From: Prevotella sp.
GTDB lineage: Bacteria; Bacteroidota; Bacteroidia; Bacteroidales; Bacteroidaceae
Length of the DNA: 53,145 nucleotides
Reading direction: 5' to 3'
Assembly: GCA_017548605.1 (NCBI GenBank)
Contig: JAFYZT010000012.1
Location: forward strand, 1-53,145
Shown here: piece by piece, positions 2,644 to 52,874 of the stretch
Numbering within the stretch: position 1 is the first letter of the stretch
How the letters are laid out: every line of letters begins with the position of its first letter
Made by a program: the position numbers and the translations under genes
Notes under the pieces: model-generated
Told to the model about the DNA's origin: nothing
Database searches by the model: none
The model's input: only the letters and a program-made list of their open reading frames with translations

Positions 2644-2684
2644 ATTGTTGTTTAGTTTTGAGGTTTGAGGTTTTGAGAGAGAAT

Positions 2685-2723
2685 GACAAACCACCCCTAT
2701 CCCTCCTTAAAATAAGGAGGAGA
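2685..2723. repeat. C-rich/G-rich hairpin repeat, copy A
   Basis: Begins GACAAACCACCCCTA and contains CCTCCTTA, an AAA loop, then TAAGGAGG (2702-2720). The same 15-nt opening recurs at 36400-36414. Related hairpins occur at 14265-14312, 26789-26840, 29218-29240, 34669-34697 and 36335-36460. It lies in the pfkA leader; function unknown. Confidence 0.7.
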
Positions 2724-2760
2724 ATAGTAACTTAGACCTCCTTGTGTATTATTAGTTTTA

Positions 2761-2823
2761 TTCAACGTTCAATGTTCAATGCCAAACATTAAATGTTCAA
2801 CGTTCAATGTTCAACGTTCAACG
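2761..2823. repeat. Nine-unit array with 7-nt period
   Basis: Nine consecutive 7-mers fill 63 bp without a phase break: TTCAACG, TTCAATG, TTCAATG, CCAAACA, TTAAATG, TTCAACG, TTCAATG, TTCAACG, TTCAACG. The array starts right after the nhaD stop codon (2826-2828) in transcription order and precedes pfkA. A closely related 7-nt array is at 51256-51304 before the M48 protease gene. Confidence 0.85.
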
Positions 2824-2825
2824 TA

Positions 2826-4211
2826 TTAGATGGTGAAGGCGAGAAGGATAAGACCCGCTATCCATCCGATGAGTGCATTTACACCCACTTTTCGGAAGAA
2901 CCAACCCACTCTGACGTGTTCCATTTTCATGAACGCTATGCCACTCATAGAGCCGATGACCATGATGTTTCCACCCGCTGCTACAGCAAAGGAAATCATT
3001 TTCCAATATGCGCCGTTTTGCGCATAGTCGGTGATTGTGGAAAGTGCAGTGCCTTCCATTCCACTGACAGCATGGAACGAAATAAAGCTCATGGCAGTTG
3101 CGAAATTGTCGAGTACCGTGCTGAATATTCCTATGATGCCACCCATGATCCATACATTATGGATATGTTTGTCGCAGATGTTAGCAAGCCATCCAATAGC
3201 TCCCGTTTCCTTCACCACTCCTATTGCCAGCATGATGCCCAGCACAAAAAGCATCATCTGAATCACACCATATTGAAGGGCCAATGGTTTGCGGTTGGAG
3301 GTCATCTTGTCGATGCGCATGAGTTTTCTGTTGAAAATTTCGTTGACAACCCACAGCACAGAAAGCACGCATGTTGCACCAAGGAACGGACTGAGTTTTG
3401 TGATGTTATGGAAGGTAGGAATGAACCACAGTCCACCTATTCCCACGAAAAGCATAACAACACGTTGCCATACATTGAGGTTAGTGTCGTCGCCCCTGTA
3501 CGGCATCTGCCGCCATTCAATGTCAACCCTTTCCGGTAACGCCCTACCGAGCAAGAACGTAGGCACCGCCCATAGCGCAATACATGGAAGGAGGAGTGAG
3601 AAGGAGAAATTGGATGCCGTTACCGCCTCCATGTTCCAGAGCACCAGGCCTGTAGGGTCACCTATGACGGTGAGTGCCCCTCCGCTATTTGCCGCCAGTA
3701 CGATAGCGCTGCCATAGATGAGTCGTTGGCTACGAGTCGGGATGAGTGAACGCATGATGACCAGCATCATGACCGTTGTCGTCACATTATCGAGGTTGGC
3801 AGAGAGGAGGAACGTCACTGACGTGAGTGCCCACAACAGCCGACGGCTTTTTCTTGTCTTTACCCATGACGAAATGAAATCGAAACACCCGTTGTTATTC
3901 AATATCTCAACGATGGTCATAGTAGCGAGCAGGAAGAGCACGACTTCGGCCGCCCTACCCACATATTTTAGGAAGATTTCCTGAGCGATGTATTGTTTTA
4001 CCGCCGTGCTGGTGGCCACGGCCCCGTTGAGGAAATCGACATATTCGCCATTATGCTGGCTTGTGACAAAGTCAGTACCCCAGCAGATATAGAGCACCCA
4101 TCCCACTGTGCCGGCGAAGATTGCGACAGCCGCCTTATTAACGTTTGTAATCTTCTCTGTGGAAATGAGCACAAACGCCATCAGTAATATGGCAACGAGG
4201 ATAAGAGTCAT
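2826..4211 (-). CDS. nhaD: NhaD-type Na+/H+ antiporter
   Basis: Inner-membrane antiporter of the ArsB/NhaD (ion transporter) superfamily, expected to expel Na+ (or Li+) in exchange for protons. I start it at ATG 4211 (MTLILVAILLMAFVLIS), giving 461 residues and about a dozen hydrophobic segments; the longer frame to 4268 would cover its own promoter. Characteristic polar membrane motifs are LDNVTTTVMMLVI, SGGALTVIGDPTGL and LDNFATAMSFISFH near the C-terminus. It is transcribed away from putA, with its own consensus promoter and a large inverted repeat at 4256-4299. Confidence 0.93.
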   Translation of the reverse strand: MTLILVAILLMAFVLISTEKITNVNKAAVAIFAGTVGWVLYICWGTDFVTSQHNGEYVDFLNGAVATSTAVKQYIAQEIFLKYVGRAAEVVLFLLATMTIVEILNNNGCFDFISSWVKTRKSRRLLWALTSVTFLLSANLDNVTTTVMMLVIMRSLIPTRSQRLIYGSAIVLAANSGGALTVIGDPTGLVLWNMEAVTASNFSFSLLLPCIALWAVPTFLLGRALPERVDIEWRQMPYRGDDTNLNVWQRVVMLFVGIGGLWFIPTFHNITKLSPFLGATCVLSVLWVVNEIFNRKLMRIDKMTSNRKPLALQYGVIQMMLFVLGIMLAIGVVKETGAIGWLANICDKHIHNVWIMGGIIGIFSTVLDNFATAMSFISFHAVSGMEGTALSTITDYAQNGAYWKMISFAVAAGGNIMVIGSMSGIAFMKMEHVRVGWFFRKVGVNALIGWIAGLILLAFTI

Positions 4212-4237
4212 TGAGGGTTTAAAGTTTATATCAACTG

Positions 4238-4269
4238 CAAAGATAGGGTAAAACAAAGAGAAATGCAAA
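4238..4269 (-). promoter_or_regulatory. nhaD promoter
   Basis: On the minus strand TTTG (4266-4269), 20 nt, then TATCTTTG (4238-4245): an exact match to the Bacteroidetes sigma-70 consensus TTTG/TAnnTTTG. It gives a leader of about 25 nt before ATG 4211. Confidence 0.85.
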
Positions 4270-4299
4270 ATAAAACGACATTAATTTTGCATTTCTCTT
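4256..4299. promoter_or_regulatory. Perfect 16-bp inverted repeat over the nhaD -33 box
   Basis: Left arm AAGAGAAATGCAAAAT (4256-4271) and right arm ATTTTGCATTTCTCTT (4284-4299) are exact reverse complements separated by 12 nt. The left arm contains the nhaD -33 element (4266-4269). Its position suits a repressor or activator operator; no regulator gene is adjacent, so the binding protein is unknown. Confidence 0.7.
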
Positions 4300-4510: not shown

Positions 4511-4518
4511 TATATTTG
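4511..4518 (+). promoter_or_regulatory. putA -7 box
   Basis: TATATTTG followed by CAG matches TAnnTTTG and lies about 53 nt before the putA start. No good TTTG lies 19-21 nt upstream, so the -33 element is weak. Confidence 0.65.
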
Positions 4519-4570
4519 CAGATGTTAACCCGAACAATTTAAAAACACATCACAACACCTTAAATTTTCG

Positions 4571-8128: not shown

Positions 8129-8938
8129 TTAAAATTCCTGCATGTGAGTGAATTTATTCCAGAAATTGGCACTCATGTATGACTCTCGTGCTCCACGCGG
8201 GATATACAGTGTAGCATTGGACACTACTGCCGGGTCGAAAGCATTCTCCATTGCCGGAGCCCTTTTTGAACGCATCATAATAGCCTGCAAGGGGCAACCG
8301 ATAAAGGCCATGTTACTTACGCTCTCTAATGTTGCGGGCAACACCACCTGACGTAGGTTAGAATATCCGTGGAAAGCTGCCGTATAAATATGGTGTACTC
8401 CATCAAGCACCTCTACTTCATCAAGCGGCAACCCTTCCGGGCATCGTACCAACGTTTCCATGTCGGCGGTATATAGAATACCATCTACCGCTTTGTATTT
8501 GGTGCAGTTCACCGTACGGAATTCCCTCAGATTGGGACAGTTAGAAAACGCGTCGTTGGATATTGAGCGTGTCTTGTCGGGAATAGTGATACGTTGCAAC
8601 ATAGAGCATCCATAGAACATACGCGCTGTTATTTGATTGCGATGTGTATAACAGTCTTGGTCGGTGCCCGTTCCGAAGTATCGTCCACCACCGCTCACGA
8701 TACGTGCCTCAGAGAGGTCAAGGTCTTGTAGCAATCCTTTCGCGCTGCACATATCACGTAGTGTAACGATGTCATCTCCATTAATTTCACCTGTAATTTT
8801 CAAGTTAGTCACCGACATCCTAGACGGTCCGAGAGCCTGTGCCAGTCCACCAGCGATGACGTTTACTGTACGCTGCGATTGTGCCATCATGGTGATGGAA
8901 GTCATGAGGCAAGCAGCAATAATCAATAGTTTTTTCAT
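8129..8938 (-). CDS. BspA-like leucine-rich-repeat secreted protein
   Basis: 269 residues with a signal peptide (MKKLLIIAACLMTSITMMAQ) followed by LRR_5 (BspA-type) repeats; recognisable units include LQRITIPDKTRSISNDAF, LREFRTVN and LRQVVLPATLESVSNMAF. Proteins of this type are secreted or surface-anchored in oral and gut Bacteroidales, where BspA of Tannerella binds host proteins; the ligand here is unknown. There is no clear type IX sorting domain; the sequence ends in FWNKFTHMQEF. The leader is an array of 10-nt repeats (8961-9050). Confidence 0.85.
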   Translation of the reverse strand: MKKLLIIAACLMTSITMMAQSQRTVNVIAGGLAQALGPSRMSVTNLKITGEINGDDIVTLRDMCSAKGLLQDLDLSEARIVSGGGRYFGTGTDQDCYTHRNQITARMFYGCSMLQRITIPDKTRSISNDAFSNCPNLREFRTVNCTKYKAVDGILYTADMETLVRCPEGLPLDEVEVLDGVHHIYTAAFHGYSNLRQVVLPATLESVSNMAFIGCPLQAIMMRSKRAPAMENAFDPAVVSNATLYIPRGARESYMSANFWNKFTHMQEF

Positions 8939-8960
8939 TGTTATTTGAAATCTTATTATT

Positions 8961-9050
8961 TAGGATAATCTAGGATAATGTAGGCATTTCTAGGAAAGCC
9001 CAGGGAGTTCTAGGAAAATCTACAGAGTTGCAGGAAAACCTGGGGTTATT
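8961..9050. repeat. Nine-unit array with 10-nt period
   Basis: Nine consecutive 10-mers, for example TAGGATAATC, TAGGATAATG, TAGGCATTTC, TAGGAAAGCC, CAGGGAGTTC, TAGGAAAATC, TACAGAGTTG, CAGGAAAACC. The units have diverged but the 10-nt phase is intact. The array covers the stop codon of the upstream gene (9046-9048) and most of the leader of the BspA-like gene. A related 10-nt array is at 40011-40080. Confidence 0.85.
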
Positions 9051-18369: not shown

Positions 18370-18373
18370 GATG

Positions 18374-18381
18374 CAAAAATA
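18374..18381 (-). promoter_or_regulatory. Phosphatase gene -7 box, leaderless arrangement
   Basis: TATTTTTG on the minus strand followed by CATC and then ATG. Transcription starting about 5-7 nt after the box would begin at or within the start codon. Confidence 0.7.
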
Positions 18382-18387
18382 AGGAAA

Positions 18388-18435
18388 ATTAAATAATTAT
18401 AAAATTAAAAGATTGAATAATTAAAAGAATGTAGA
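18388..18435. repeat. Six-unit array with 8-nt period
   Basis: ATTAAATA, ATTATAAA, ATTAAAAG, ATTGAATA, ATTAAAAG, AATGTAGA follow without a phase break. The unit ATTAAAAG is shared with arrays at 41182-41221 and 43264-43311. Here the array lies between the divergent promoters of the phosphatase and the small secreted protein. Confidence 0.8.
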
Positions 18436-18445
18436 AGAAAAAGTG

Positions 18446-18453
18446 TATATTTG
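18446..18453 (+). promoter_or_regulatory. -7 box of the small secreted protein gene
   Basis: TATATTTG followed by CATTC, 45 nt before ATG 18498. The leader after it is AT-only low-complexity sequence with an approximate 7-nt period. Confidence 0.65.
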
Positions 18454-18497
18454 CATTCATAATTTATAATTGATAATTAACAATTAAATAAATAGAT

Positions 18498-20154: not shown

Positions 20155-20351
20155 TCGGAAAAGTTCAAACAAGTTTGGCTTTTCGCTCGTTTATCCGTAC
20201 CTTTGACTTCGTCGAAGGTACTCTCACTCGGAAAAGTTCAAACAAGTTTGGCTTTTCGCTCGTTTATCCGTACCTTTGACTTCGTCGAAGATACTCACAC
20301 TCGGAAAAGTTCAAACAAGTTTGGCTTTTCGCTCGTTTATCCGTACCTTTG
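20155..20351 (+). promoter_or_regulatory. Triplicated 73-bp promoter repeat before topB
   Basis: Copies start at 20155, 20228 and 20301, exactly 73 bp apart; the third is cut off at its -7 box by the topB start. Each contains TTTG, 20 nt, TACCTTTG, a perfect consensus promoter, with the -7 boxes at 20198-20205, 20271-20278 and 20344-20351. Upstream of the -33 box each copy has an imperfect inverted repeat (GGAAAAG and CAAAC against GTTTG and TTTTCG). After copies 1 and 2 comes the 11-bp palindrome CTTCGTCGAAG. Copies 1 and 2 differ at two positions. Confidence 0.85.
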
Positions 20352-31848: not shown

Positions 31849-33498
31849 TCAGATGACCTCTATGCCCAGTTGTTCGCACAGTTTGAGGCTCATCTCCTTG
31901 AGTTTAAATTTCTGGATTTTTCCTGAGCCTGTCAGTGGGAACTCATCGATGAAGAAGACATATTTGGGAATCTTGTAACGAGCAATCTTTCCACGGCAGA
32001 ACTCCTGCACATCCTCAGGGAGCATCTTCACGCCCTCCTGGAGGATGATGAAAGCACCCACCGCCTCACCATATTTCTTCGAAGGCACGGCAGCCACCTG
32101 CACATCCTTGATGCCCGGCATGTGGTAGAGGAATTCCTCTATCTCACGTGGGTAGACATTCTCGCCGCCACGGATAATCATGTCCTTGATACGTCCCGTG
32201 ATACGGTAGTAGCCCTGTTCATCCTTAATGCCGAGGTCACCTGAGTGGAGGAAACCATTCTTGTCAATCACCTCAGCAGTAGCTTCGGGATTCTTATAGT
32301 ATCCTTTCATCACATTGAATCCCCGACAACACATTTCTCCCTGGACACCCACGGGACACTCCTCGCCAGTCTCCGGATCGAGCACCTTCACCTCAACGAA
32401 AGGATAGTCGCGACCTACCGTTGTGCAACGTTGTTCAAAGGTATCAGTGAGACAGGTGTGCGTCATTCCCGGCGAACTCTCCGTCAGACCGTAGACGCTG
32501 GTGATGGTCATGAACATTTTCTCGGATACCCTTTTCATCAGTTCTATCGGGCATAGCGACCCTGCCATGATGCCAGTGCGCAGGCAGCTCACGTCGAACA
32601 TGGAGAACATAGGATGGTCGAGTTCGGCAATATACATCGTGGGCACGCCATAGAGTGCCGTACACCGTTCCTTATGAATTGATGCGAGCACCACCAACGG
32701 GTCGAACTTCTCCACCATCACCTGCGTACACCCATGTGTGAGACAGTTCATCGTAGCAAGCACTACACCGAAACAGTGGAACAGTGGCACACAGACACAT
32801 AGTTTGTCCTGATCGGTGAAGCCCATGGCCTCACCTGTGAAGTAACCATCGTTAGCAATATTATAATGTGTGAGCATGACGCCCTTGGGAAAACCTGTAG
32901 TGCCAGAGGTATATTGCATGTTGACCACATCGTGGCACGTGACACTTTCCTTGGCTTGTGAGAGCGTCTCGTCGTTGATGTTCTGTCCGAGCAACAACAA
33001 TTCCGCCGTATTATACATACCCCGGTATTTCTCCATGCCAATGAAAACCACGTTTTTGAGATAGGGAAAACGTTCACTGTTGAGATGTCCCCGTTCGCAC
33101 TGTCGCAACTCCGGCAACATCTTATAGGTCATATCAACATAATCACATTCCCATGTACCGTCGGTAATGCACAACGTATGCATGTCGGAGTCCTTACACA
33201 AGTATTCCAATTCCGCCTGTTTATAGTTCGTGTTAACTGTGACAAGTACCGCCCCTATCTTCGCCGTGGCATAAAGAAAAGTGAGCCAATCGGGTACGTT
33301 GGTGGCCCATATGCCTACGTTGCTCCCCTTTTTCACACCGATGGCAAGCAACCCCTTAGCCAAGTTATCGACCCTTTGATTGAACACACTCCATGTGAAG
33401 CGCAGATTACGATCAGAATAGACAATATATTCACGGTCGGGTGTTGTCTCAGCCCAATGTTCGAGCCAGCCGCCGAGGGTACGTTCGGATAATTGCAT
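31849..33498 (-). CDS. AMP-forming acyl-CoA synthetase (fatty-acid--CoA ligase)
   Basis: 549 residues of the adenylate-forming family. It activates a carboxylic acid as acyl-AMP and transfers it to CoA. Seen: P-loop [25 protein letters not shown], the hinge region [19 protein letters not shown] and the C-terminal catalytic lysine motif [12 protein letters not shown]. The chain length of the substrate cannot be judged. It follows the XRE-cupin gene by 98 bp on the same strand; the two probably form a unit in which the regulator senses a related metabolite. The leader has 7-nt repeats. Confidence 0.92.
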
Positions 33499-33536
33499 GT
33501 TAAGTTTGAGGTTTGAGAATTGAGGTTTGTTGTTTA
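33499..33536. repeat. Short 7-nt-period repeat in the ligase leader
   Basis: On the minus strand AACCTCAA, TTCTCAA, ACCTCAA lead into the start codon, with AACAACA upstream. The pfkA leader (2644-2675) has the same vocabulary: CTCAAAAC, CTCAAAC, CTCAAAAC, TAAACAAC. Confidence 0.6.
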
Positions 33537-36460: not shown

Positions 36461-36539
36461 GGGAAAAGATACGACTCCGAAGAAAAGGAGGGAGAAGGAG
36501 CATAACAACTAAGAAACTCACCGACTTATATATTTAATA

Positions 36540-36571
36540 ACTTAGGAACTTAATAACTTAGAAACTTAGAA
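36540..36571. repeat. 8-nt-period repeat in the GH3 leader
   Basis: ACTT recurs exactly every 8 nt (36540, 36548, 36556, 36564) in units TAACTTAG, GAACTTAA, TAACTTAG, AAACTTAG, ending just before the ATG at 36575. Confidence 0.75.
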
Positions 36572-39396: not shown

Positions 39397-39993
39397 TTAT
39401 GCTTCGTCGGTTTCGAGGAGGAAGGTTGCCATATTATCTGCCGAATGAATAAGTGACACCAGTGGGAAGCGGCTGTTCGCCTCGGAATAGTTTTGTTTGA
39501 TGTCATAGCTTTGAAAGGGCATATCCCATGGACCCATGTGCCATCGTATGGCCAGTATCTCGTCGTTGTTGAGTTTCAGTCCCAACCGGAGCAGATTGAT
39601 AACCGATTTCTCACCGTGACCTACCGGAAAGAGACTATAGTCGGTATCATAGGTGTCATAAGTCTCCCAATGGTCGTTCTCATCTTTCCTCCATTTTTTC
39701 ACAATCTTGTATAGCGTGGCCTTACACAAATCATGGAGCAATGCGCAGATGATGACACTGTCTTCAGGCAACCGTTTTTCTAGTTCAGGCCGCATTTCGA
39801 GTACTCTTTCACGCATAGCCAGCGCCATGCGGCACACATTCATGGAATGCACCAAAAGTCCTTCTGGACGCGACAAATGTCGTCTCACAGAAGCTGGAGC
39901 CTCGAAGAAATTCGCTTTCTCGAGATATTCAATAACCTTTTCTATTCCTTCGCGATTTGTGTCGCGGAGCATTTGTATAAATTGCTGTTTCAT
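39397..39993 (-). CDS. HD-domain hydrolase
   Basis: 198 residues with the metal-binding HD signature: H of LLVHSMNVC, HD in LLHDLCKATLYK and a later histidine in RWHMGP. These enzymes are phosphohydrolases, often on nucleotides or cyclic nucleotides; the substrate here is unknown. The N-terminus MKQQFIQMLRDTNREGIEKV looks natural. Its leader is an array of 10-nt repeats (40011-40080). Confidence 0.85.
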   Translation of the reverse strand: MKQQFIQMLRDTNREGIEKVIEYLEKANFFEAPASVRRHLSRPEGLLVHSMNVCRMALAMRERVLEMRPELEKRLPEDSVIICALLHDLCKATLYKIVKKWRKDENDHWETYDTYDTDYSLFPVGHGEKSVINLLRLGLKLNNDEILAIRWHMGPWDMPFQSYDIKQNYSEANSRFPLVSLIHSADNMATFLLETDEA

Positions 39994-40010
39994 TAGTTAA
40001 CAAATTATTA

Positions 40011-40080
40011 AGGATTACTTAGGATATTCCAGGAAGACATAGTATAATTGGGAAAACCTATGATGTTATAGGATAAGCTA
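40011..40080. repeat. Seven-unit array with 10-nt period
   Basis: AGGATTACTT, AGGATATTCC, AGGAAGACAT, AGTATAATTG, GGAAAACCTA, TGATGTTATA, GGATAAGCTA. The vocabulary (AGGA plus AT-rich 6-mers) matches the 10-nt array at 8961-9050. It occupies the space between the DUF3298-like gene and the HD hydrolase start. Confidence 0.7.
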
Positions 40081-40862: not shown

Positions 40863-41186
40863 ATGAAGATTATCCGCAATAGATTCATTCCACTGAAGCG
40901 TTTTGATGCGATGAACCTGTTTGGTGTGCTGTTCTGCCACCGCGATACGCGTTTAACGCCTCAGTTGATTAATCACGAGCGCATCCACACCCACCAGATG
41001 TTGGAGATGCTGGTGGTGGGGTTCTACGTGTGGTATGTGACGGAATGGGTGATTCGTCTGTTTATGCGTGGGAATGCCTATTTCAATATTGGCTTCGAAC
41101 GTGAAGCGTATCGTCACATGCACGACTTGGAATATCTGAAGAGGCGGAAACATTTTGCATGGTGGAAGGAAATGAAAAAAAATTAA
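40863..41186 (+). CDS. Small membrane protein with HExxH motif, function unknown
   Basis: 107 residues from ATG 40863 (MKIIRNRFIPLKRFDAMNLF). It contains NHERIHTHQ, an HExxH-type zinc site (H38, E39, H42), then one hydrophobic stretch (MLVVGFYVWYVTEWVIRLF) and an EREAYRHMHD segment whose glutamate could be a third ligand. The size is far below a normal zinc protease, so it may be a minimal metal-binding or peptidase-like protein. The longer frame upstream crosses the promoter. It precedes the OPT gene by 88 bp of 8-nt repeats. Confidence 0.75.
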   Translation: MKIIRNRFIPLKRFDAMNLFGVLFCHRDTRLTPQLINHERIHTHQMLEMLVVGFYVWYVTEWVIRLFMRGNAYFNIGFEREAYRHMHDLEYLKRRKHFAWWKEMKKN

Positions 41187-41221
41187 AAGATTAAAAGATT
41201 AGAAAATTAAAAGAATAAAAG
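41182..41221. repeat. Five-unit array with 8-nt period in the OPT leader
   Basis: ATTAAAAG, ATTAAAAG, ATTAGAAA, ATTAAAAG, AATAAAAG, starting in the last codon of the preceding gene. A-rich sequence continues to the OPT start at 41275. Confidence 0.8.
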
Positions 41222-41274
41222 ATTGATAAAAGAAGGAGAAAAGACGAAAAAGAGAAAATTATATAATTAACAAT

Positions 41275-43260
41275 ATGAAAGAAGAGAAAGAAATGATGCA
41301 ACTGCCCGAAAATGCGTTTCGGGAGTTGAAAGAGGGTGAAGAATACCATCCGGTAATGTCGCCCGAAAAGACCTATGCAGAAGCCAACGGTTGGTCGATT
41401 ACATGGGGTATTTTGATGGCTATTTTGTTCAGTGCCGCCGCCGCATATTTGGGACTGAAGGTGGGTCAGGTGTTTGAAGCCGCCATCCCCATTGCCATCA
41501 TCGCTGTGGGAGTGTCGACACTTCGCAAGAACCACAACCCTTTGGGTGAGAATGTCATCATCCAGAGTATCGGTGCCTGTTCAGGTGCCGTGGTGGCCGG
41601 TGCTATATTTACTTTACCAGCCATTTACATCCTGCAGGCTAAATATCCTGAAATGACTGCATCGTTTGAAAAAGTGTTTTTCTCGTCACTGTTGGGCGGC
41701 ATCATCGGTATCTTGTTTCTCATCCCTTTCCGTAAGTATTTCGTGAAAGACATGCACGGCAAGTACCCCTTCCCTGAGGCTACTGCCACCACACAGGTGC
41801 TCATCTCCGGTGCTAAGGGCGGCAACCAGGCCAAGCCCCTACTGATAGCAGGTCTGGTGGGCGGTCTGTATGACTTCATCGTAGCCACCTTCGGTTGGTG
41901 GAACGAAGTGGTGACCACACGCATGATTGGTTTCGGCGAGACAATAGCCGAGAAAGCGAAGTTAGTCTTTAAGGTGAACACTGGAGCTGCCGTCTTGGGC
42001 TTGGGTTATATTATCGGTTTGAAATATGCCTTCATTATCTGCCTCGGTTCGTTAGCCGTGTGGTGGCTGATTGTTCCCGTGATGGGTTGGGCTTTCCATG
42101 ACCAAGTGTTGAACATGTGGGACCCGTCGATTACCGACACCGTTGGTGCGATGAGTCCTGAAGCCATCTTCAAGTGTTATGGTAAAAGCATCGGTATCGG
42201 TGGCATCGCCATGTCTGGCATCATCGGCATCATTAAATCGTGGGGTATTATCAAGGGCGCCGTGTCATTGGCCTCAAAGGAGATGAAGGGCAAAGGTGGA
42301 AGCATTGAAGAAGTTCAGCGCACACAACGTGACCTTTCGTTCAAAATCATTGCCATCGGAGCCATTCTGACCATTCTGGTCACTTTTGTGTTCTTCTGGT
42401 TGGGCGTGATGGACGGCAACATACTGTTTGCTGTCGTCGGCATACTTTTAGTGACCATTATTGCTTTCCTTTTCACCACTGTCGCTGCCAATGCCATTGC
42501 CATTGTAGGCAGCAACCCCGTGAGCGGTATGACCCTGATGACATTGATTCTGGCCTCAGTGGTCATGGTTGCTGTTGGTCTGAAAGGCACAGCAGGCATG
42601 GTAGCCGCTCTGATTATGGGTGGTGTGGTATGTACAGCCTTGTCCGTTGCCGGTTCGTTCATTACTGACTTGAAAATCGGTTACTGGTTGGGAACAACCC
42701 CAAAGGTACAGGAGAAATACAAATTCCTGGGTACGTTAGTCAGTGCCGCCACAGTCGGTGGTGTGATGATATTGCTCAACGCCACCTACGACTTTGCCGG
42801 TGGTGAGATAGCCGCCCCGCAAGCTAATGCCATGGCCGCCGTCATTGACCCCTTGATGAACGGTGTCGGCGCTCCATGGTTGTTGTACGGCATCGGAGCC
42901 GCCATAGCCATTATACTGACCCTGTGCAAGATACCCGCCCTACCCTTCGCATTAGGTATGTTCATTCCCTTGGAGTTGAACATCCCACTATTGGTAGGCG
43001 GCGGTATCAATTGGTATGTCACCACCCGTTCGAAGAATGAGGAGGTAAACAAGGAGCGTGGTGAGAAAGGCACCTTGTTAGCCAGCGGTTTCATTGCCGG
43101 TGGTGCGCTGATGGGCGTAGTAAGTGCATTGTTGCGCTTTGCCGGCGTGAACCTGGTGAGTCAGGAATGGCAAGCCAACAGCCTGTCAGAACTCTGCGCC
43201 CTTGGAGCCTATATCCTGCTGATTGGCTATTTCGTGTGGGCGACGAAAAAGAAAGATTAG
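41275..43260 (+). CDS. OPT-family oligopeptide transporter
   Basis: 661 residues, about 14-16 membrane spans. The start MKEEKEMMQLPENAFRELKE gives a cytoplasmic N-tail before the first span (ITWGILMAILFSAAAAYLGL). Motifs KVGQVFEAAIPIAI, GKYPFPEATATTQVL and SNPVSGMT are typical of the bacterial OPT branch, which imports oligopeptides (some members iron chelates) with protons. Single gene; it ends in a strong terminator. Confidence 0.93.
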   Translation: MKEEKEMMQLPENAFRELKEGEEYHPVMSPEKTYAEANGWSITWGILMAILFSAAAAYLGLKVGQVFEAAIPIAIIAVGVSTLRKNHNPLGENVIIQSIGACSGAVVAGAIFTLPAIYILQAKYPEMTASFEKVFFSSLLGGIIGILFLIPFRKYFVKDMHGKYPFPEATATTQVLISGAKGGNQAKPLLIAGLVGGLYDFIVATFGWWNEVVTTRMIGFGETIAEKAKLVFKVNTGAAVLGLGYIIGLKYAFIICLGSLAVWWLIVPVMGWAFHDQVLNMWDPSITDTVGAMSPEAIFKCYGKSIGIGGIAMSGIIGIIKSWGIIKGAVSLASKEMKGKGGSIEEVQRTQRDLSFKIIAIGAILTILVTFVFFWLGVMDGNILFAVVGILLVTIIAFLFTTVAANAIAIVGSNPVSGMTLMTLILASVVMVAVGLKGTAGMVAALIMGGVVCTALSVAGSFITDLKIGYWLGTTPKVQEKYKFLGTLVSAATVGGVMILLNATYDFAGGEIAAPQANAMAAVIDPLMNGVGAPWLLYGIGAAIAIILTLCKIPALPFALGMFIPLELNIPLLVGGGINWYVTTRSKNEEVNKERGEKGTLLASGFIAGGALMGVVSALLRFAGVNLVSQEWQANSLSELCALGAYILLIGYFVWATKKKD

Positions 43261-43263
43261 GAA

Positions 43264-43311
43264 ATTAAAAGATTAAAAGATTTAAAAATTCAAAGATTAT
43301 AAGATTATTGG
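43264..43311. repeat. Six-unit array with 8-nt period after the OPT gene
   Basis: ATTAAAAG, ATTAAAAG, ATTTAAAA, ATTCAAAG, ATTATAAG, ATTATTGG in strict 8-nt phase, directly after the stop codon. The first two units are identical to those in the leader of the same gene. Confidence 0.8.
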
Positions 43312-44875: not shown

Positions 44876-44912
44876 GTTATTTATAGTTATTTAATCTTTT
44901 CAATATTTTAAC

Positions 44913-44984
44913 AGTTATGATAGTTGTTATAGAAGCTATAGTTGCAATAGAATTTATAGTTGTTATTGTGATTATAGATTCTAC
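44913..44984. repeat. Eight-unit array with 9-nt period in the fabG leader
   Basis: AGTTATGAT, AGTTGTTAT, AGAAGCTAT, AGTTGCAAT, AGAATTTAT, AGTTGTTAT, TGTGATTAT, AGATTCTAC with no phase break over 72 bp. It starts 4 nt beyond the TetR stop codon and fills most of the gap to fabG. A related 9-nt array is at 52821-52874. Confidence 0.85.
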
Positions 44985-47559: not shown

Positions 47560-49800
47560 ATGAAGCAACTTCTCATCATCTTGTTTATTTTTCTCGGGAT
47601 TGCTCAGCGAACAATGAGTCAGGAGGAGGAGCCCCGAAAGAAAGTGGCTCTGGTGCTCAGTGGCGGCGGTGCCAAGGGAGTAGCCCACATCGGAGTACTG
47701 AAAGTGTTGGAAAGAGCCGGCATTCCTATCGACCTTATTACAGGTACCAGCATGGGCAGTCTTGTCGGTGGTCTGTATTGCTGCGGTAACAGTGCAACTC
47801 GCCTTGACTCCATAGTCAGGGCTCAGGACTGGACGGAAGTATTCTCCGACAAGGAAGACTTACGATACCAAAGTTTGAAAGAACGAGAGTTTCAAAATAC
47901 CTATGTCTTCTCGACCAGTCTTCGTTTGAAGAAAAGAATAAGACCAATAGGTGGCGGTATCATTATCGGCAAGAACGTCGGCAAGCTTCTAAACACGTTA
48001 ACGACCCCGTATAACGATTCCATAGATTTCAACACTCTTCCCATCCCCTTTGCCTGTGTGGCCACAAACGTTGTGGACAACAGCGAGGTGGTATTCCATA
48101 ATGGTATTCTGAGTGAAGCCATGCGTGCGAGCATGTCGATTCCCGGCGCCTTCTCTCCTGTAAGAAAAGGCGACCAGGTACTTGTTGACGGTGGTTTACG
48201 TAACAATTATCCTGCCGACATAGCCAAAGAGATGGGTGCCGACTATATCATCGGAGTGTCCGTTGCCAGCAAGCTGAAGAAAGCCGATAAATTGCGTACA
48301 GGCACCGACATTTTGCTTCAGATTGTTGATTTCAACTGCAAGAACAAATTTGATGAGAACATTGCCATCACCGACATTCCCATCATTGTCGACACTGAAG
48401 GTTACAGTTCAGCCTCTTTCAGTCCATCCGCCATTGACACACTGATTCGTAGGGGCGAAGAAGCTGCCATGGCGCACTGGGATGAAATCATCGCCCTCAA
48501 AGAGAAGATTTATCCGTCACATCTGAAGCCCCGTCATCAAGATGTCGTTCAAGAACCATTGTCAGACAACCCTTCATACAGAATCGGTGAACTGCGATTT
48601 GAAAACATGCTCCGCAGTGACGAACATTTCATCCGTACGAAATTTAAACTTCGTGAAGGTGACAGTATCGATACCGACCTAACGCATCTCATCATGACCT
48701 CCATCCGTATGGATCGTTTTTATGAGAGTGCAGATATACACATCGAACGAAATGCCGTTGAAATGTCTGATGGTACTAAGGCTGACAGAATAACGCTGAT
48801 AGCCGGCGACAAACGTCCCAACAAGATGAACGTTGGCATCCGTTTTGACACAGAAGAGATTGTTGCGTTACAAACCAATCTCGCCTTTCCCATCCGCCAT
48901 AAACTGCCCATGGAATTCGACTTTACGCTCCGCTTAGGCAAACGCATCAAGGCAGAAGCCAATCTGGAGTTTCACCCCACCAGCATTATCACTCCTACCC
49001 TCACCTTTGGTTTCCACCGCAATGATTACTTCCTCTATGAATATGGCAAGAAGAGTTATGACCTGAGTTATAACCGATTATTTGTCAAAGCTGCTCCACT
49101 TACCTTCAATGTCCGCAATTTCTATTTTAGCATCGGGGCTGCTATTGACTATTACTTCAATTACGACCTGCTGCTCGACCAAGTAGAAGAGCACTACATG
49201 GAGATGCCCAAGCGTGAGCATTTCATCAGTTACTTCGCCAAGGTAGATTACAATAGCGAGAACAATTGGTATTTCCCTACCCGTGGAAGTAAGTTAAAGG
49301 TGCAATATGGCTATTACACTGACAATTTTATCAAATTGAACGATGACATCGGTTTGCATGAGGTGAGTGCCATGTGGCGTACCAATTTTCCTATAAGCCG
49401 GCATCTCTCCATCCAGCCTATGTTATACGGCCGTCTTCTCCACTACGACGACACCCCTGTCATTCTATGCAATATCATGGGCGGTGAATGGTTCGGCCAT
49501 TATATTGAACAGCAACTGCCCTTTGCCGGAGTAGGGCATATTGAACTTCAATATGACAAATTCTTAGCAGCCCAGTTACAAGCTCAATATTCACTGACCA
49601 CTAACAACATCATCCTATTAAAATTTGCTGTAGCTGAGGATGATGACAAATACAGTGATCTATTTAAAAGCAAGGTAATGCTTGGCAGTTCACTAAGTTA
49701 CTATTACAATGCTTTGACAGGGCCTGTCGGTTTGTCGTTGGGCTACAGCAATGTGACCAAGAAACCCTATTTTTACATTAATCTTGGCTATGTGTTCTGA
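47560..49800 (+). CDS. Patatin-like phospholipase with outer-membrane barrel domain
   Basis: 746 residues with a signal peptide (MKQLLIILFIFLGIAQRTMS). The patatin domain has the oxyanion loop SGGGAKGVAHIG, nucleophile S64 in GTSMGS and catalytic D210 in DGGLRNNYP. A POTRA-like stretch (about 340-420) and a C-terminal BamA-type barrel ending in YFYINLGYVF follow. The layout resembles PlpD-type (type Vd) proteins, in which a lipid hydrolase is attached to its own outer-membrane barrel. The substrate is unknown. Confidence 0.9.
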   Translation: MKQLLIILFIFLGIAQRTMSQEEEPRKKVALVLSGGGAKGVAHIGVLKVLERAGIPIDLITGTSMGSLVGGLYCCGNSATRLDSIVRAQDWTEVFSDKEDLRYQSLKEREFQNTYVFSTSLRLKKRIRPIGGGIIIGKNVGKLLNTLTTPYNDSIDFNTLPIPFACVATNVVDNSEVVFHNGILSEAMRASMSIPGAFSPVRKGDQVLVDGGLRNNYPADIAKEMGADYIIGVSVASKLKKADKLRTGTDILLQIVDFNCKNKFDENIAITDIPIIVDTEGYSSASFSPSAIDTLIRRGEEAAMAHWDEIIALKEKIYPSHLKPRHQDVVQEPLSDNPSYRIGELRFENMLRSDEHFIRTKFKLREGDSIDTDLTHLIMTSIRMDRFYESADIHIERNAVEMSDGTKADRITLIAGDKRPNKMNVGIRFDTEEIVALQTNLAFPIRHKLPMEFDFTLRLGKRIKAEANLEFHPTSIITPTLTFGFHRNDYFLYEYGKKSYDLSYNRLFVKAAPLTFNVRNFYFSIGAAIDYYFNYDLLLDQVEEHYMEMPKREHFISYFAKVDYNSENNWYFPTRGSKLKVQYGYYTDNFIKLNDDIGLHEVSAMWRTNFPISRHLSIQPMLYGRLLHYDDTPVILCNIMGGEWFGHYIEQQLPFAGVGHIELQYDKFLAAQLQAQYSLTTNNIILLKFAVAEDDDKYSDLFKSKVMLGSSLSYYYNALTGPVGLSLGYSNVTKKPYFYINLGYVF

Positions 49801-49847
49801 AAAGGTAAAAAGGTAAAAGGGTGAAAAAGTAAAACGGGAAAAAAATA
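49800..49847. repeat. 8-nt-period repeat after the patatin gene
   Basis: AAAAGGTA, AAAAGGTA, AAAGGGTG, AAAAAGTA, AAACGGGA, AAAAAATA in phase, beginning with the last base of the stop codon. No terminator hairpin is visible here. Confidence 0.7.
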
Positions 49848-49971: not shown

Positions 49972-49992
49972 CACCCACTTAACGAGAAACAT

Positions 49993-50065
49993 CGCGGAGT
50001 GGAGCAGTTGGTAGCTCGCCAGGCTCATAACCTGGAGGTCGCACGTTCGAATCCTGCCTCCGCAA
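49993..50065 (+). tRNA. tRNA-fMet (initiator, anticodon CAT)
   Basis: 73 nt up to the discriminator A, no encoded CCA. The C1-A72 mismatch and A11-U24 pair mark it as initiator rather than elongator Met. Two features are unusual: the anticodon stem has A29-U41, G30-C40, G31-C39 instead of three G-C pairs, and the T stem has a C52-C62 mismatch (GCACG opposite CCTGC). The 3' end from position 56 on, with the terminator, is repeated at 50199-50248. Confidence 0.92.
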
Positions 50066-50097
50066 CTATGGAGTCCGATTAACATCGGACTTCTTTT
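50048..50097. repeat. 50-bp direct repeat, copy 1 (tRNA 3' end plus terminator)
   Basis: Runs from tRNA position 56 through the terminator T-tract. Copy 2 at 50199-50248 differs at one base (G50077 versus A50228). The offset is 151 bp, leaving a 101-bp insert between the copies. Confidence 0.9.
50072..50097 (+). terminator. Initiator tRNA terminator
   Basis: AGTCCGAT, TAAC loop, ATCGGACT, then TCTTTT. The duplicated version at 50223-50248 has one mismatch in the stem. Confidence 0.85.
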
Positions 50098-50248: not shown

Positions 50249-50252
50249 TATA

Positions 50253-51248
50253 TTAGAATTGTTCGAGAATTTGTATGCGTTTTGCAGTATCGGGATGTGT
50301 ACTGAAGAGCGAGTTGAAAAAACTCATAAATCCCGCTTTAATACCTTGGGGGTGTATGATATACAACTGAGCAATGTCATCGCGTTTCACCTGTCCAAGT
50401 CCAGGATCACAAGATATTTTGCGCAGGGCGGAAGCCAGTGCCAGCGGATCGCCACAGAGTTCAGCTCCTCCAGCATCTGCCATATACTCTCTTTTTCGAG
50501 ATATGGCAAAACGAGTTAGCAATCCAAAGAAATAAGCGATAGCACTACATATCAACCCTATGATTAATACAATAAACGCACCTCCCACATTATTATCCCG
50601 ACTTCTACTTGAACCTGAGGACCACAAAAGACCATACATCACTCTGACAGTAAGGCTCATAATGGTGGAGATAATGCCCACGAAGATAATACTGGTGATA
50701 AGCAATCGGGTGTCGCGGTTTCGAATATGCGTCAGTTCATGCCCCACAACACCAGCCAATTCATTATCGTCAAGCAGGTTGATAAGTCCTGTAGTAAGCG
50801 TCACGGCATAACTTTTTTTGTCGATACCACTGGCATAGGCGTTCAGCTGCGGATCGTCAACCACAAAGATTTGCGGCATATCCATGCCACATGTCATGGT
50901 GAGATTTTCAACGATGTTATACACCCGCATATTTTCCTTCCTTGTCAATGGTCTTGCACCAGTCGCATGTTTGATCATCGAAGAATTGAAGAAATAGGCG
51001 ATGGTAAACCATATGGCTACGCCACCCACGACCCACGGCAATACGTGCAGAAATTCTTCCCATACCAATGCCATGTCGAAAGTAGAAATAGTTTCTCCAC
51101 TGGCTGTGGTATATGACCCCTGCACATAAAAAAGCACATAGATGAAGACCCACACCATTGCCAGAATGATTATGGGAAACATCAACAGCAACAACACGCT
51201 GAGCATATTGTTGCGGCTGATCTGGGTCTGCATTCCTACATATCGCAC
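50253..51248 (-). CDS. M48-family membrane metallopeptidase (HtpX-like)
   Basis: 331 residues. Two N-terminal membrane spans, the zinc site HELTH in VVGHELTHIRNRDTR, further spans, and a downstream glutamate in REYMADAGGAEL. HtpX-type proteases degrade damaged membrane proteins. ATG 51233 (MQTQISRNN) is an alternative start. It follows lemA by 83 bp; the lemA-M48 pair is frequent in Bacteroidetes and other phyla, which suggests that LemA is a partner of the protease. Confidence 0.92.
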   Translation of the reverse strand: MRYVGMQTQISRNNMLSVLLLLMFPIIILAMVWVFIYVLFYVQGSYTTASGETISTFDMALVWEEFLHVLPWVVGGVAIWFTIAYFFNSSMIKHATGARPLTRKENMRVYNIVENLTMTCGMDMPQIFVVDDPQLNAYASGIDKKSYAVTLTTGLINLLDDNELAGVVGHELTHIRNRDTRLLITSIIFVGIISTIMSLTVRVMYGLLWSSGSSRSRDNNVGGAFIVLIIGLICSAIAYFFGLLTRFAISRKREYMADAGGAELCGDPLALASALRKISCDPGLGQVKRDDIAQLYIIHPQGIKAGFMSFFNSLFSTHPDTAKRIQILEQF

Positions 51249-51255
51249 CTTATTA

Positions 51256-51304
51256 CATTGAAAATTGAATGTTGAACATTAAACATTGATAATTAAACAA
51301 TCAA
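51256..51304. repeat. Seven-unit array with 7-nt period in the M48 leader
   Basis: CATTGAA, AATTGAA, TGTTGAA, CATTAAA, CATTGAT, AATTAAA, CAATCAA in phase over 49 bp, ending shortly before the M48 start (minus strand). Reverse-complement units such as TTCAATG are the same as in the array at 2761-2823. Confidence 0.75.
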
Positions 51305-51331
51305 TGTCATTCTATTCCTATGATTTCAGTA

Positions 51332-51895
51332 TCAGAAACTGATTTCCGGTGCCTTGTCGTATTCCTGACGTTCCTGTTGTGGTATTTCAATCATTGGTTC
51401 CTTTTGGAATCCGAACATGCCGGCAATAATATTCGATGGGAAAGTTTGCACGGCATTATTGAGTTCCTTAGTAGCCGAATTGAAGAATCTGCGAACGGCA
51501 GCCAGTTTGTTTTCAATGTCGGCGATTTCGCTTTGCAATTTGATGAACAGCTTGTCAGCTTGCAATTGCGGATATGCTTCAAGTGTCACCTTTAATCCAG
51601 CAAGAGCATTGGACAGTTGATTTTCAGCGATGACTTTCTCATTGACCGTATTCGCACTCATTGCCGCCGAACGTGCTTTAGTCACTTCCTCAAACACTGT
51701 TTTTTCATGTGCCGCATACCCTTTGGCCGTATTCACGAGTTGCGGGATAAGGTCATGACGTTGTTTTAACTGTACGTCTATATTTGCATAGGCGTTTTCA
51801 CGATTGTTCCTCAGTTTAACCAAACTGTTATACATACTTACCAGCCAGACCCCTATTAATACGAGAATGGCCACAATAACTAAAGCGATAATCAT
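51332..51895 (-). CDS. lemA: LemA family protein
   Basis: 187 residues from ATG 51895 (MIIALVIVAILVLIGVWLVS), a single N-terminal membrane anchor, followed by the LemA core (YNSLVKLRNNRENAYANIDV, LKQRHDLIPQLVNTAKGYAAHE) made of long helices. The frame continues upstream to 52048, but that part crosses the promoter and a terminator and is not family-like. Function is not established; it is co-transcribed with the M48 protease gene. Confidence 0.93.
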   Translation of the reverse strand: MIIALVIVAILVLIGVWLVSMYNSLVKLRNNRENAYANIDVQLKQRHDLIPQLVNTAKGYAAHEKTVFEEVTKARSAAMSANTVNEKVIAENQLSNALAGLKVTLEAYPQLQADKLFIKLQSEIADIENKLAAVRRFFNSATKELNNAVQTFPSNIIAGMFGFQKEPMIEIPQQERQEYDKAPEISF

Positions 51896-51920
51896 AATAA
51901 ACGAATTTAATAGTTTACTA

Positions 51921-51952
51921 CAAAGGTATGATAATTTTGCATCAAAAACAAG
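51921..51952 (-). promoter_or_regulatory. lemA promoter
   Basis: Minus strand CTTG (51949-51952), 20 nt, TACCTTTG (51921-51928), 26 nt before ATG 51895. Confidence 0.75.
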
Positions 51953-52001
51953 CAGGCTTTGAAATTTATCATTTTTTAACAGAATTATGTGAATAATAGA
52001 T

Positions 52002-52041
52002 AATAAAAAAAATCCGGTCGGTTCCAAAAGGAATCGACCGG
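52002..52041 (-). terminator. Terminator of the lytic transglycosylase gene
   Basis: On the minus strand CCGGTCGATTCC, TTTT loop, GGAACCGACCGG (12 bp, one mismatch or wobble; 52014-52041), followed by ATTTTTTTTATT. Confidence 0.88.
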
Positions 52042-52065
52042 TATACAAAATTGAATTAACATTTG

Positions 52066-52491
52066 TTAGCGCATATAGCTCATCACCCTTTCATAATAGC
52101 GTTGGGTGCTGCGTACATTGAAATTGCATCCTCCTTGCCACATTCTTATGGCTCTTTCCACATTGTGTTTGGGGTTGTAGTAGCTCTGAATGATGACGAA
52201 CATTTCCTTCGATTTAGCTACATTGAAACGATCATTGAGGGTGTAGCGTTTTGAGCTGCCACGACGTTTCAAGATATTGTTGCATTCCTGCACCAGCACG
52301 GGTGAGATTTGCAGCACGCCACAGTAGATACCACTTCTGGCATTAGGGTTTCCTTTGCTTTCCACCTGAATAATTGCGTCGATGACCGGAGTCCAATCAT
52401 AATCATTTTCTTCACCTTCTGCTAGCATCACTGTCGGCATCGACATAAAGAACATCATGCTAATAAAAACAAATTTCGCAAGTCTCTTCAT
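52066..52491 (-). CDS. Small lytic transglycosylase-like (SLT) protein
   Basis: 141 residues with a signal peptide (MKRLAKFVFISMMFFMSMPTVMLA). A lysozyme-like core follows: catalytic E44 in AIIQVESKGNPNA, GVLQISP, and AIRMWQGG with a final TQRYYERVMSYM. Such enzymes cleave peptidoglycan glycan strands, making 1,6-anhydro ends. It is near the minimum size for the fold. Single gene with terminator; the -7 box about 145 nt upstream implies a long leader. Confidence 0.88.
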   Translation of the reverse strand: MKRLAKFVFISMMFFMSMPTVMLAEGEENDYDWTPVIDAIIQVESKGNPNARSGIYCGVLQISPVLVQECNNILKRRGSSKRYTLNDRFNVAKSKEMFVIIQSYYNPKHNVERAIRMWQGGCNFNVRSTQRYYERVMSYMR

Positions 52492-52820
52492 TGTTACATT
52501 GGTTATGGAGCCTCAATCATCACGATAACACGGCGGGACTAGGAATAAGTACGAAGTCCGAGCCAAAGCTCCTGTTAGTACTTGGAAGACCATTATAAAT
52601 ATGTGTCGGTCAACCGTTTATTAATTAACTCGGTGCAAAGGTACGAAAAAAAATGCGATGAGCCATGGTTTTAATGTTAGAATTGACCATTTTTAAGAAA
52701 CTGTAAGAAATTATATCAAGTTGAAAATCAACGTTTTGAATATGAAAACGTTTACGTTTTCACAAATGTAAATGTAAAGAAAGTTTAATTTTTGGACGGT
52801 GAGGAGTGAGAGGTGAGAGT
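52492..52820. other. Transglycosylase leader and spacer to the rRNA operon
   Basis: No gene is visible. A minus-strand -7 box TACCTTTG (52636-52643) would give a leader of about 138 nt, which includes the small hairpin GAGC-TTTG-GCTC (around 52562-52573). Upstream sequence (52644-52820) is AT-rich and unstructured apart from a CGTTT/AAACG stretch near 52732-52757. Confidence 0.5.
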
Positions 52821-52874
52821 AGCTATAGCGGCTATAGTGACTATAGATGCTATAGATGCTATAGAGACTGTAGC
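52821..52874. repeat. Six-unit array with 9-nt period after the rRNA operon
   Basis: AGCTATAGC, GGCTATAGT, GACTATAGA, TGCTATAGA, TGCTATAGA, GACTGTAGC in strict phase. It lies just beyond the 5S terminator. CTATAG recurs here and in the fabG-leader array (44913-44984). Confidence 0.85.

Follow-up and report, generated by a model that had tools for sequence, protein, structure and literature searches.

Diverged tandem arrays of fixed 7-10-nt period in the intergenic spacers of Prevotella

Short tandem arrays in a rumen Prevotella contig

The stretch of DNA analysed here, referred to as the window, is the complete 53,145-nt contig JAFYZT010000012.1 of a Prevotella sp. from the rumen, whose assembly (labelled G000) comprises 3.25 Mb in 55 contigs and is 92% complete. 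It carries a beta-xylosidase gene (xyl3A), an OPT transporter gene, a tRNA-Met gene and a 5S rRNA gene, and many of its spacers contain short tandem arrays built from units of one length, between 7 and 10 nt, that differ from each other in spelling (Table 1). Twelve such arrays had been listed in an initial annotation, which described them as strictly phased. The observation is confirmed as real and is not particular to the window.

Arrays were scored as ungapped self-matches at a given lag, and the scores were compared with dinucleotide shuffles of the same spacer and with shuffles of 40-nt blocks. Tandem Repeats Finder and inspection of the letters place the arrays where they had been listed. 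Each listed array was tested with 400 shuffles at the claimed lag and with 150 shuffles for any lag from 5 to 12, and whole spacers were tested at all lags from 2 to 30, a score of at least 14 defining an array. Genes were called with a home-made caller, with some starts off and some arrays assigned to coding sequences (CDS) possibly lying in misjudged frames. Loci are designated by L numbers, L002 being the window's own DNA, and genomes by G numbers. The named loci are the best 80 of 369 from GTDB and all surround one gene, the relatives of xyl3A; among these best 80, L032 (96% protein identity) and L033 (92%) are the nearest neighbours, all others reaching at most 85%, and the closest loci are Prevotella assemblies, several of them from water buffalo and other ruminants. 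The array catalogues overlap and differ by threshold, one holding 198 arrays (7-10 nt, score 14) and another 275 (score 13, larger sample).

At the claimed lag, 10 of the 12 arrays outscored all 400 of their shuffles, and the other two (18388 and 40011) gave p 0.010. When any lag from 5 to 12 was allowed, 11 of the 12 spacers beat their own shuffles with p ≤ 0.02, the exception being the stretch at 40011 (p 0.12), which we do not accept as an array in its own right. The best lag of the 18388 spacer is 7, belonging to the neighbouring array at 18455-18487, and not 8. Counted by spacer, 10 of 34 in the window hold an array (shuffled mean 1.0, maximum 3; block-shuffled 1.1), three arrays having a period of 7 and five of 8, so that 8 is as common as 7 here; a variant run with slightly different gene calls and an added end spacer gave 11 of 34 against 0.76 shuffled. 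Six or more in-phase units are present in 6 of 35 spacers, against a shuffled mean of 0.54 and a maximum of 3; equal numbers in shuffles, which the initial annotation had named as a refutation, were thus not obtained.

The units are diverged, as had been described: nowhere in the window does a 7-10-nt unit occur three times in a row without a change. The accompanying statement that units almost never differ by indels holds for the arrays examined. Of 275 arrays followed beyond their right edge, 256 stop there, 18 go on in the same register and 1 goes on in another (out-of-register continuation with foreign units as a control: 1 of 92), but the CTCAAAC piece at 2655-2677 does contain indels, and the scarcity of indels is partly a matter of construction because the arrays were detected with an ungapped method.

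Table 1. Tandem arrays of the window, with scores against shuffled spacers
Position	Strand	Period (nt)	Unit and context	Score and test
2655..2677	-	7/8	Short CTCAAAC/CTCAAAAC array with indels, just ahead of likely ATG 2643 of gene 1666-2643	TRF score 39, 12% indels; direct sequence reading
2761..2824	-	7	Sense unit ACGTTGA/ACATTGA, 9.1 units; begins 1 nt past upstream stop codon	29; reached by 0/400 shuffles
8955..9022	-	10	Sense unit TAGATTTTCC, core TTCCTAG, 6.8 units; ends 16 nt ahead of start of 8129-8938	16; 0/400
18387..18425	.	8	ATTAAAAG-like; divergent spacer 18370-18497	15; p 0.010 at lag 8
18455..18487	.	7	ATTCATA-like; divergent spacer 18370-18497	18; best lag of spacer, p(any lag) 0.020
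33499..33535	-	7	Sense unit CTCAAAC; abuts start codon of 31849-33498	13; 0/400 at lag 7, p(any) 0.013
36507..36571	+	8	Unit AACTTAGA, 8.1 units; ends 3 nt ahead of ATG of beta-xylosidase gene 36575-39175	19; 0/400
40010..40080	-	10	Claimed array, weak; TCCTA-like, before 39397-39993	8; p 0.010 at lag 10, p 0.12 over lags 5-12, block shuffles 0.10
41177..41224	+	8	AAAAGATT/AAAGATTA; stop codon TAA 41184-41186 inside first units	25 within spacer; 0/400
43256..43308	+	8	ATTAAAAG; runs through and beyond stop codon of OPT transporter gene 41275-43260	25; 0/400
44890..44975	-	9	CTAT every 9 nt, ~9.6 units	21; 0/400
49800..49843	+	8	AAAAGGTA; directly 3' of stop codon of 47560-49800, upstream of tRNA-Met 49993-50066	18; 0/400
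51257..51294	-	7	Sense TTCAATG-like; ends 23 nt ahead of start of 50253-51233	15; 0/400
52822..52877	-	9	CTATAGNNN; between 5S rRNA gene (52944-53056, -) and gene 52066-52491 (-)	31 for stretch 52794-52873; 0/400

A weaker repetitive piece (52794-52821) adjoins the last array of the table. At 2689-2745 the window contains a spacer piece, GACAAACCACCCCT, and after it a CCTCC/GGAGG hairpin; a similar-looking piece lies at L116:17676, and 7-nt arrays adjoin both. A 73-nt repeat of 2.7 copies with 98% matches occupies 20155-20351; it contains CGTACCTTTG, which we take to be a Bacteroidetes-like promoter stretch, and an L104 spacer has a stretch of similar appearance.

Period spectrum and conservation between orthologous spacers

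About a quarter of Prevotella spacers carry an array, and arrays make up 7-12% of spacer DNA in the Prevotella sets. Twenty other stretches of G000 gave 47 spacers with an array out of 163 (shuffled 2.5, block-shuffled 6.0), the 80 named loci 139 out of 525 (3.8 and 7.0) and ten further genomes of the genus 47 out of 219 (2.2 and 4.0), as opposed to 1 out of 59 for two stretches of E. coli DNA (0.1 and 0.4). A small sample from ten other Bacteroidales families gave 1/12, 2/44, 1/26, 1/37, 2/28, 0/21, 4/37 (G053), 0/37, 3/17 (G058) and 8/31 (G059), the shuffled means lying between 0 and 0.5; G059 is array-rich, with periods of 7, 10 and 14, and most of the other sampled families are not. The density of 7-10-nt arrays per kb of spacer varies widely among genomes, from 0.03-0.10 (G003, G010, G016, G023) through 0.27-0.70 (G025, G031, G027) to 1.3-1.85 (G000, G009, G004, G034).

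Periods of 7-10 nt are in excess in the spacers, with a mode at 7, and such arrays also occur in CDS; periods of 2-6 nt are nearly absent. The 332 kb of Prevotella spacers contain 130 arrays of period 7, 74 of 8, 31 of 9, 12 of 10, 9 of 11, 8 of 12 and 1 of 13; periods 2-6 total 12 (one of 5 and three of 6), and a separate peak at longer periods comprises 14 arrays of 21, 91 of 22 and 12 of 23 nt. At a score of at least 16, the 2.45 Mb of predicted CDS yielded 110 arrays, of which 69 have period 7 (5 of period 6, 8 of 8, 12 of 9, 1 of 11, 8 of 12 and 7 of 15), and codon-shuffled genes from 60 loci (0.9 Mb) yielded two only, of periods 9 and 15. Most CDS arrays of period 7, 8 or 11 (59 of 78) sit more than 90 nt from either gene end. 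Period 7 leads in genes even though it breaks the reading frame and multiples of three would be expected, which argues for a mutational origin of the 7 and against one in leader function. Genes are the poorer ground overall: for periods 7-12 at the same score, 200 arrays lie in the 332 kb of spacer and 98 in the 2.45 Mb of CDS.

Many unrelated unit sequences fall into this one narrow set of periods, and the mismatch at a lag of one unit is 24% (2920/12073). The period mix differs among genomes (permutation p 0.029 with families collapsed): G027 has mostly 8, G034 mostly 7 and G004 most often 9 among the short periods, and G003, G010 and G016 have mostly 22. Two candidate rules of spelling were tried and rejected. 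An association of CTA/TAG with periods 9-10 (22 of 55, against 17.3 with shuffled letters) was not borne out, the contrast stemming from depletion in periods 7-8 (34 of 220 against 56.1). A fixed core with free columns is not general either, as 6 of 8 chosen arrays were not significant; it is clear in one array only (L032 18143, 0/5000 permutations), and L117 7313 gave p 0.02.

Among 111 directional comparisons of orthologous spacers, all of them between species as the genome collections hold one genome per species, 47 showed no 7-10-nt array in the orthologue. Where both sides had one, the period was the same in 36 of 41 rows, or 32 of 37 distinct pairs, four of the rows being repeats (two against L002, two reciprocal) that are also included in the similarity means below. 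Two random arrays share a period with a probability of 0.37, a value that understates chance because same-lag arrays were preferred where the orthologue had several and because genomes differ in period mix. Unit similarity was 0.77 (n=17) at a flank identity of at least 85% and 0.64 (n=19) below it; random heptamers reach 0.53, and the lower of the two values still exceeds this (p 0.004). The period is thus mostly conserved between orthologous spacers as the number and spelling of the units change.

Individual loci illustrate this behaviour. The array ahead of xyl3A consists of AACTTAGA-type octamers in the window and in L032 and of a larger number of AACTAAAG/AACTGTAT units in L033, and it was not found in those leaders of more distant relatives that were inspected. 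The array at 41177..41224 recurs at the same position and period in L032 and L033, and that at 44890..44975 has an L032 orthologue of ~15 units, likewise of period 9. The array at 43256..43308 is shorter in L032 and absent from L033, and that at 33499..33535 has no counterpart in the shorter orthologous spacers of either. One orthologous site, read as a gene interior in L043, holds 7-nt arrays of AAGGTTC in L072, CAAGTTT in L102, TCTTACC in L043 and TCTCACC in L097, and none in L041 and L049. Near the 5' end of another gene the units are GGTGTTG (L043), ACTATTC (L042), TTTATTG (L072) and an octamer (L041). That the period outlives the sequence at a locus fits these data well, as does the suggestion in the initial annotation of a process that keeps period and not sequence.

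The 22-nt arrays (for example at L205:13835, L207:8084, L214:14145 and 18795, L217:8593, L048:6040 and L104:6032) form a class of their own. Their units are no more alike between loci than shuffled ones (mean 0.478 against 0.469, with 19 of 6715 pairs reaching 0.8), they are self-complementary (0.597 against 0.513, p 2e-11), and they are nearly absent from G000 (1 array where 17.7 were expected). Such palindromic units may be operator-like sites obeying quite different rules. Tentatively, both classes might reflect a sequence-independent length rule for local duplication, with modes at 7 (with a tail to 10, in spacers and genes) and at 22 ± 1, in which the period is inherited and the period mix is a trait of the genome. 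If this were true, the second mode would build locus-specific tandem palindromes in the sampled relatives and almost none in G000, and the step would appear to have a heritable, probably enzymatic, setting.

Origin of the arrays

Several arrays look as if they had grown from the bases around the preceding stop codon. L041 reads 'aaaaagtaa ACGACT atg' where L043 has 'aaaaagtaa' and then a 48-nt run that is largely made of AAAAAGTA/AAAAGGTA units, with AAAGGTAA AAAAGTAA units after the stop codon, and the stop codon likewise lies within an array unit in L087, L102 and L104. Other orthologous spacers are empty or nearly so in one species and filled in another (4 nt in L088 against 140 nt in L075; 0 nt in L046 against 35 nt in L104 and 45 nt in L048), the 17 arrays inspected having been chosen from 118 orthologous pairs. 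Four of the listed arrays begin at the upstream stop codon (2761, 41182, 43264 and 49800). The stop codon is in phase with the stop-adjacent array in 21 of 64 cases, against 11.1 expected from foreign gene ends, and several of the comparisons can be read as stop-codon bases expanded into an array.

We consider it probable that the arrays are driven by mutation, that is, by gain and loss of whole units in DNA where this is tolerated, with loops too long for mismatch repair, and that some were dispersed secondarily. The first step would be strand slippage or a similar local duplication. A looped-out segment of 7 nt or more would escape MutS/MutL repair, loops of 1-4 nt being repaired, and the only frequent length change left would then be that of a whole unit, which would account for both the floor of the period and the strict phase. 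Substitutions would subsequently diversify the units, and because whole-unit gain and loss would replace them over time, the period would outlast any sequence. Arrays would persist where length is tolerated, as in co-directional spacers and dispensable coding linkers. Two secondary influences may be added: a G-poor bias near start codons, and a dispersal of some arrays as composite elements, in which inverted partners and conserved linkers would be copied along with the array. Full-length mutS1 and mutL are present in G000, and both the efficient repair of 1-3-bp loops and the idea of a loop-size limit are already in print (PMC4060949). The mechanism explains the absent 1-4-nt periods, the strict phase, the rewriting of units and the spectrum in CDS. 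It also bears on the remark that the arrays are unlike fresh slippage products: this describes a single array fairly, but the same appearance would be expected of slippage arrays that are old and have turned over by whole units.

Several observations weigh against this mechanism. It leaves unexplained the missing periods of 5 and 6, the abundance of arrays here compared with E. coli, and the dispersed inverted elements. Efficient repair of 1-3-bp loops (PMC4060949) does not alone exclude periods 5-6, and because the E. coli control has MutS and MutL matches too, the floor can be explained in this way but the abundance here cannot. Dispersed families and inverted pairs need something besides slippage. 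Higher-order repeats of two to four units, first suggested by the window, show no excess: 16 of 91 long arrays have them, against 25.7 with unit order permuted. Local copying should also make neighbouring units more alike than distant ones, and this signal is weak, the similarity in 43 homogeneous arrays being 0.768, 0.775, 0.748 and 0.749 at one to four units apart (two versus four units, p 0.04). An origin at the stop codon is supported for a minority of arrays only, arrays next to a start codon extend into the gene in 1 of 35 cases, equal to the control, and the case for unit turnover is built on comparisons between species, with one genome for each.

A difference in repair genes was considered as the cause and rejected, since mutL is above the cut-off in 19 of 19 genomes and mutS1 in 18 of 19 (G009 being the exception). 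The 92%-complete G000 lacks a second, MutS2-like match (so labelled from its length and the part matched) that is present in the other 18 genomes, but the array-rich G034 and G004 do have it. The mutS1 search also returned, in G000, an N-terminal-only match in a 234-aa frame beside the full-length MutS1, and in G009 no full-length MutS1 match, the assemblies being incomplete.

An alternative that we regard as unlikely is that the arrays are arms of inverted-repeat elements, copied between spacers by transposition or gene conversion, with a G-rich array after the stop codon, a linker and a complementary C-rich array before the start codon. Parts of G000 do have this appearance. A composite element runs, in order, through a REP-like hairpin, a GAGGTGA array, a GGGGCAA array, the linker ATATGCCNGCNGGGTAAT, a TTAACTCC array and an AACATTC array; the linker pattern has 33 matches in the genome against 5 for the reversed pattern, and 12 of 13 inspected matches look like copies, not every piece being present in each. 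The composite intergenic element was seen at the own-genome loci L152-L160 and L162-L164. Pairs of arrays of equal period in the same spacer are reverse complementary (at least 0.85) in 45% of 40 cases against 4% of controls, forward similarity not being raised on average (0.535 against 0.516). A partner complementary at 13 of 14 positions lies in the same spacer for 47 of 229 arrays (21%, against 2% with foreign units), and one at 12 of 14 for 57 arrays (25% against 5%). In co-directional spacers the 5' arm of such inverted pairs is G-rich in 31 of 36 (reverse in 4, tied in 1). At one orthologous spacer the arms differ between relatives, being GAGGTGA in L104 and GAGGCAA in L048, and either type is matched by the complement proper to it. 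The pattern GAGRGGTGA has 156 overlapping matches in G000 and none for its reversed control, and its distribution is patchy, with matches in 56 of 120 genus genomes in very uneven copy number; some genomes, G010 among them, have just as many matches to the reversed control. G033 and G070 have 118 and 64 matches to the reversed control pattern (AGTGGRG type) and none to the forward one, and so carry another heptamer family.

These dispersed families explain the units common to distant loci, a feature of the initial annotation that holds for the genome. The arrays of the window themselves, however, have no clear complementary partner, the best being 11 of 14 at 49800, a value reached by 14% of foreign-unit controls, and several cases of expansion can be explained locally without insertion. 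A Y1-type (RAYT) transposase (PF01797) was rejected as the disperser: there were no matches in G000, as far as its 92% completeness allows, and 11 of the 19 panel genomes were positive. A plasmid search with the 41150-41280 spacer gave no match.

Whole-unit mutation also competes with a function in leaders, where the arrays would bind protein or ribosomes or prevent folding. The genus makes no use of Shine-Dalgarno (SD) sites, and a role of this kind has been proposed for the TAACTGA repeats of Beggiatoaceae. The absence of SD sites was borne out, with SD-like tetramers at -18 to -5 in 24 of 276 own ATG genes and 18 of 276 in a control interval farther upstream (47 and 2 of 84 in the E. coli stretches). 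Arrays close to a start codon are rich in A and poor in G (G fraction 0.131, compared with 0.253 in arrays more than 60 nt away, p 5e-6; 0.159 in array-free leaders). The density of 7-10-nt arrays is highest between co-directional genes, at 1.29 per kb, compared with 0.43 where the flanking genes diverge and 0.63 where they converge. There is also a polarity of G and C: stop-side arrays have G over C in 67 against 39 and start-side arrays C over G in 60 against 36 (p 4e-4), or 51 to 33 and 48 to 28 with one array per spacer (p 0.003), and array-free spacers show no significant contrast (p 0.17). In the window all 7 start-side arrays have C>G and all 4 stop-side arrays G>C, the array at 52821, between the 5S rRNA gene and the next gene, being neither. 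It had been claimed that many arrays end just before a start codon; 7 of 12 do so within 0-23 nt in sense, but placement is ordinary across the genus, where 38% of 154 arrays lie within 15 nt against 32% for random positions in the same spacer (Kolmogorov-Smirnov p 0.29). Folding z-scores do not differ between array and array-free spacers (99 against 198, p 0.17), the array is missing in the 47 orthologue comparisons mentioned, the units differ between orthologues, and period 7 leads in CDS too. Selection on length or structure in leaders is thus not supported as a general rule, and a leader function appears improbable as the origin of the arrays.

It is very unlikely that the arrays serve as termination insulators, whose stop-bearing units, mostly of a period that is not a multiple of three, would close every reading frame behind a gene. 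All three frames do meet a stop within 30 nt in 0.55 of 62 array spacers, compared with 0.15 shuffled and 0.05 of 298 array-free spacers, and sense stops in the unit exceed the expectation from shuffled letters on both sides (67 of 86 against 54.0 stop-side, 48 of 80 against 36.9 start-side), but the stop-side excess follows from duplicating DNA that includes the stop codon, and start-side stops are equally common in sense (48/80) and antisense (50/80), so that there is no strand preference. We give as little credence to a dedicated enzymatic ruler that copies a fixed ~7 or ~22 nt whatever the sequence: the two isolated peaks at 7-10 and 22 ± 1 with their many unrelated units, and the period mix that differs among genomes, would suit it, but there is no candidate gene, the differences among genomes partly reflect dominant families, and the 22-nt palindromes may follow other rules.

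Relation to known bacterial repeats

The arrays can be compared with several repeat classes known from bacteria. Prokaryotic long simple sequence repeats (SSRs) of 5-11 nt have been reported (Mrazek et al. 2007, as cited in PMC4679880 and PMC4692102), intergenic heptamer repeats are widespread and without a clear clue to function (SPADE survey, PMC6344855), and polymerase contact or slippage has already been proposed as a basis for the 7 nt (PMC4679880, PMC4692102, PMC6344855). The Prevotella arrays resemble these heptamer-class SSRs in their mode at 7, their location mainly between genes, their many sequences and the lack of a known function; in the genus sample, tandem units of 5-11 nt exceed chance and peak at 7, and spacers are favoured over CDS in the counts given above. 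The heptamer-class definitions 7n3 and 8n3 (PMC4060949) ask for exact copies, whereas the Prevotella arrays are strongly diverged. As the window contains no three exact copies, its arrays fall outside the exact-copy definition and represent a diverged variant of the known class; other genomes of the genus do have exact-copy arrays. Unlike heptamer-class SSRs, the Prevotella arrays span 7-10 nt, are present in about a quarter of spacers, can be traced between orthologous spacers and partly form inverted pairs. On balance they are likely a diverged relative of the bacterial heptamer repeats.

The TAACTGA direct repeats of Beggiatoaceae, Cyanobacteria and five Bacteroidetes (MacGregor 2015, PMC4679880) are intergenic heptamer arrays as well, most of them without SD sites, some overlapping the end of the upstream gene and one set lying reversed directly after a stop codon. 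They often stand right before a start codon in sense; of the listed Prevotella arrays 7 of 12 end within 23 nt of one, but across the genus the placement does not go beyond random. They are repeats of one fixed unit, related heptamers being rarely repeated, whereas Prevotella has many species-specific unit families of 7-10 nt; TAACTGATAACTGA does not occur in 376 kb of G000, and none of 34 own 7-nt units is a TAACTGA rotation. In Xanthomonas and Nostoc, the GGGNATC heptamers (Rehm 2015, PMC4692102) are likewise intergenic, vary in length and sequence between close relatives and include some inverted pairs, but they form G-quadruplex families, and the units of the window are not G-tract repeats. 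BrickBuilt, a minisatellite of the miniature inverted-repeat transposable element (MITE) type in Porphyromonas gingivalis (PMC4596501), is also a dispersed Bacteroidales element that holds a tandem array. Its 23-nt unit comes with a defined leader, tail and inverted ends, in contrast to the 7-10-nt units of the window, and the Prevotella 22-nt class is nearer to it in length but varies in sequence by locus.

A literature search by title and abstract, in which subscription journals are thinly covered, returned no account of diverged phase-locked 7-10-nt arrays in Prevotella or of the 22-nt class. The heptamer excess in spacers is already in print and unexplained, and the diverged, phase-locked arrays are the new part. 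Many of the Prevotella arrays escape exact-repeat counts because they are diverged, and they can confound leader motifs, operator predictions and the annotation of gene ends in this genus. With about a quarter of spacers carrying an array, species-specific periods and orthologues that can be traced, some of them empty, the arrays make the heptamer question measurable with strains and repair mutants.

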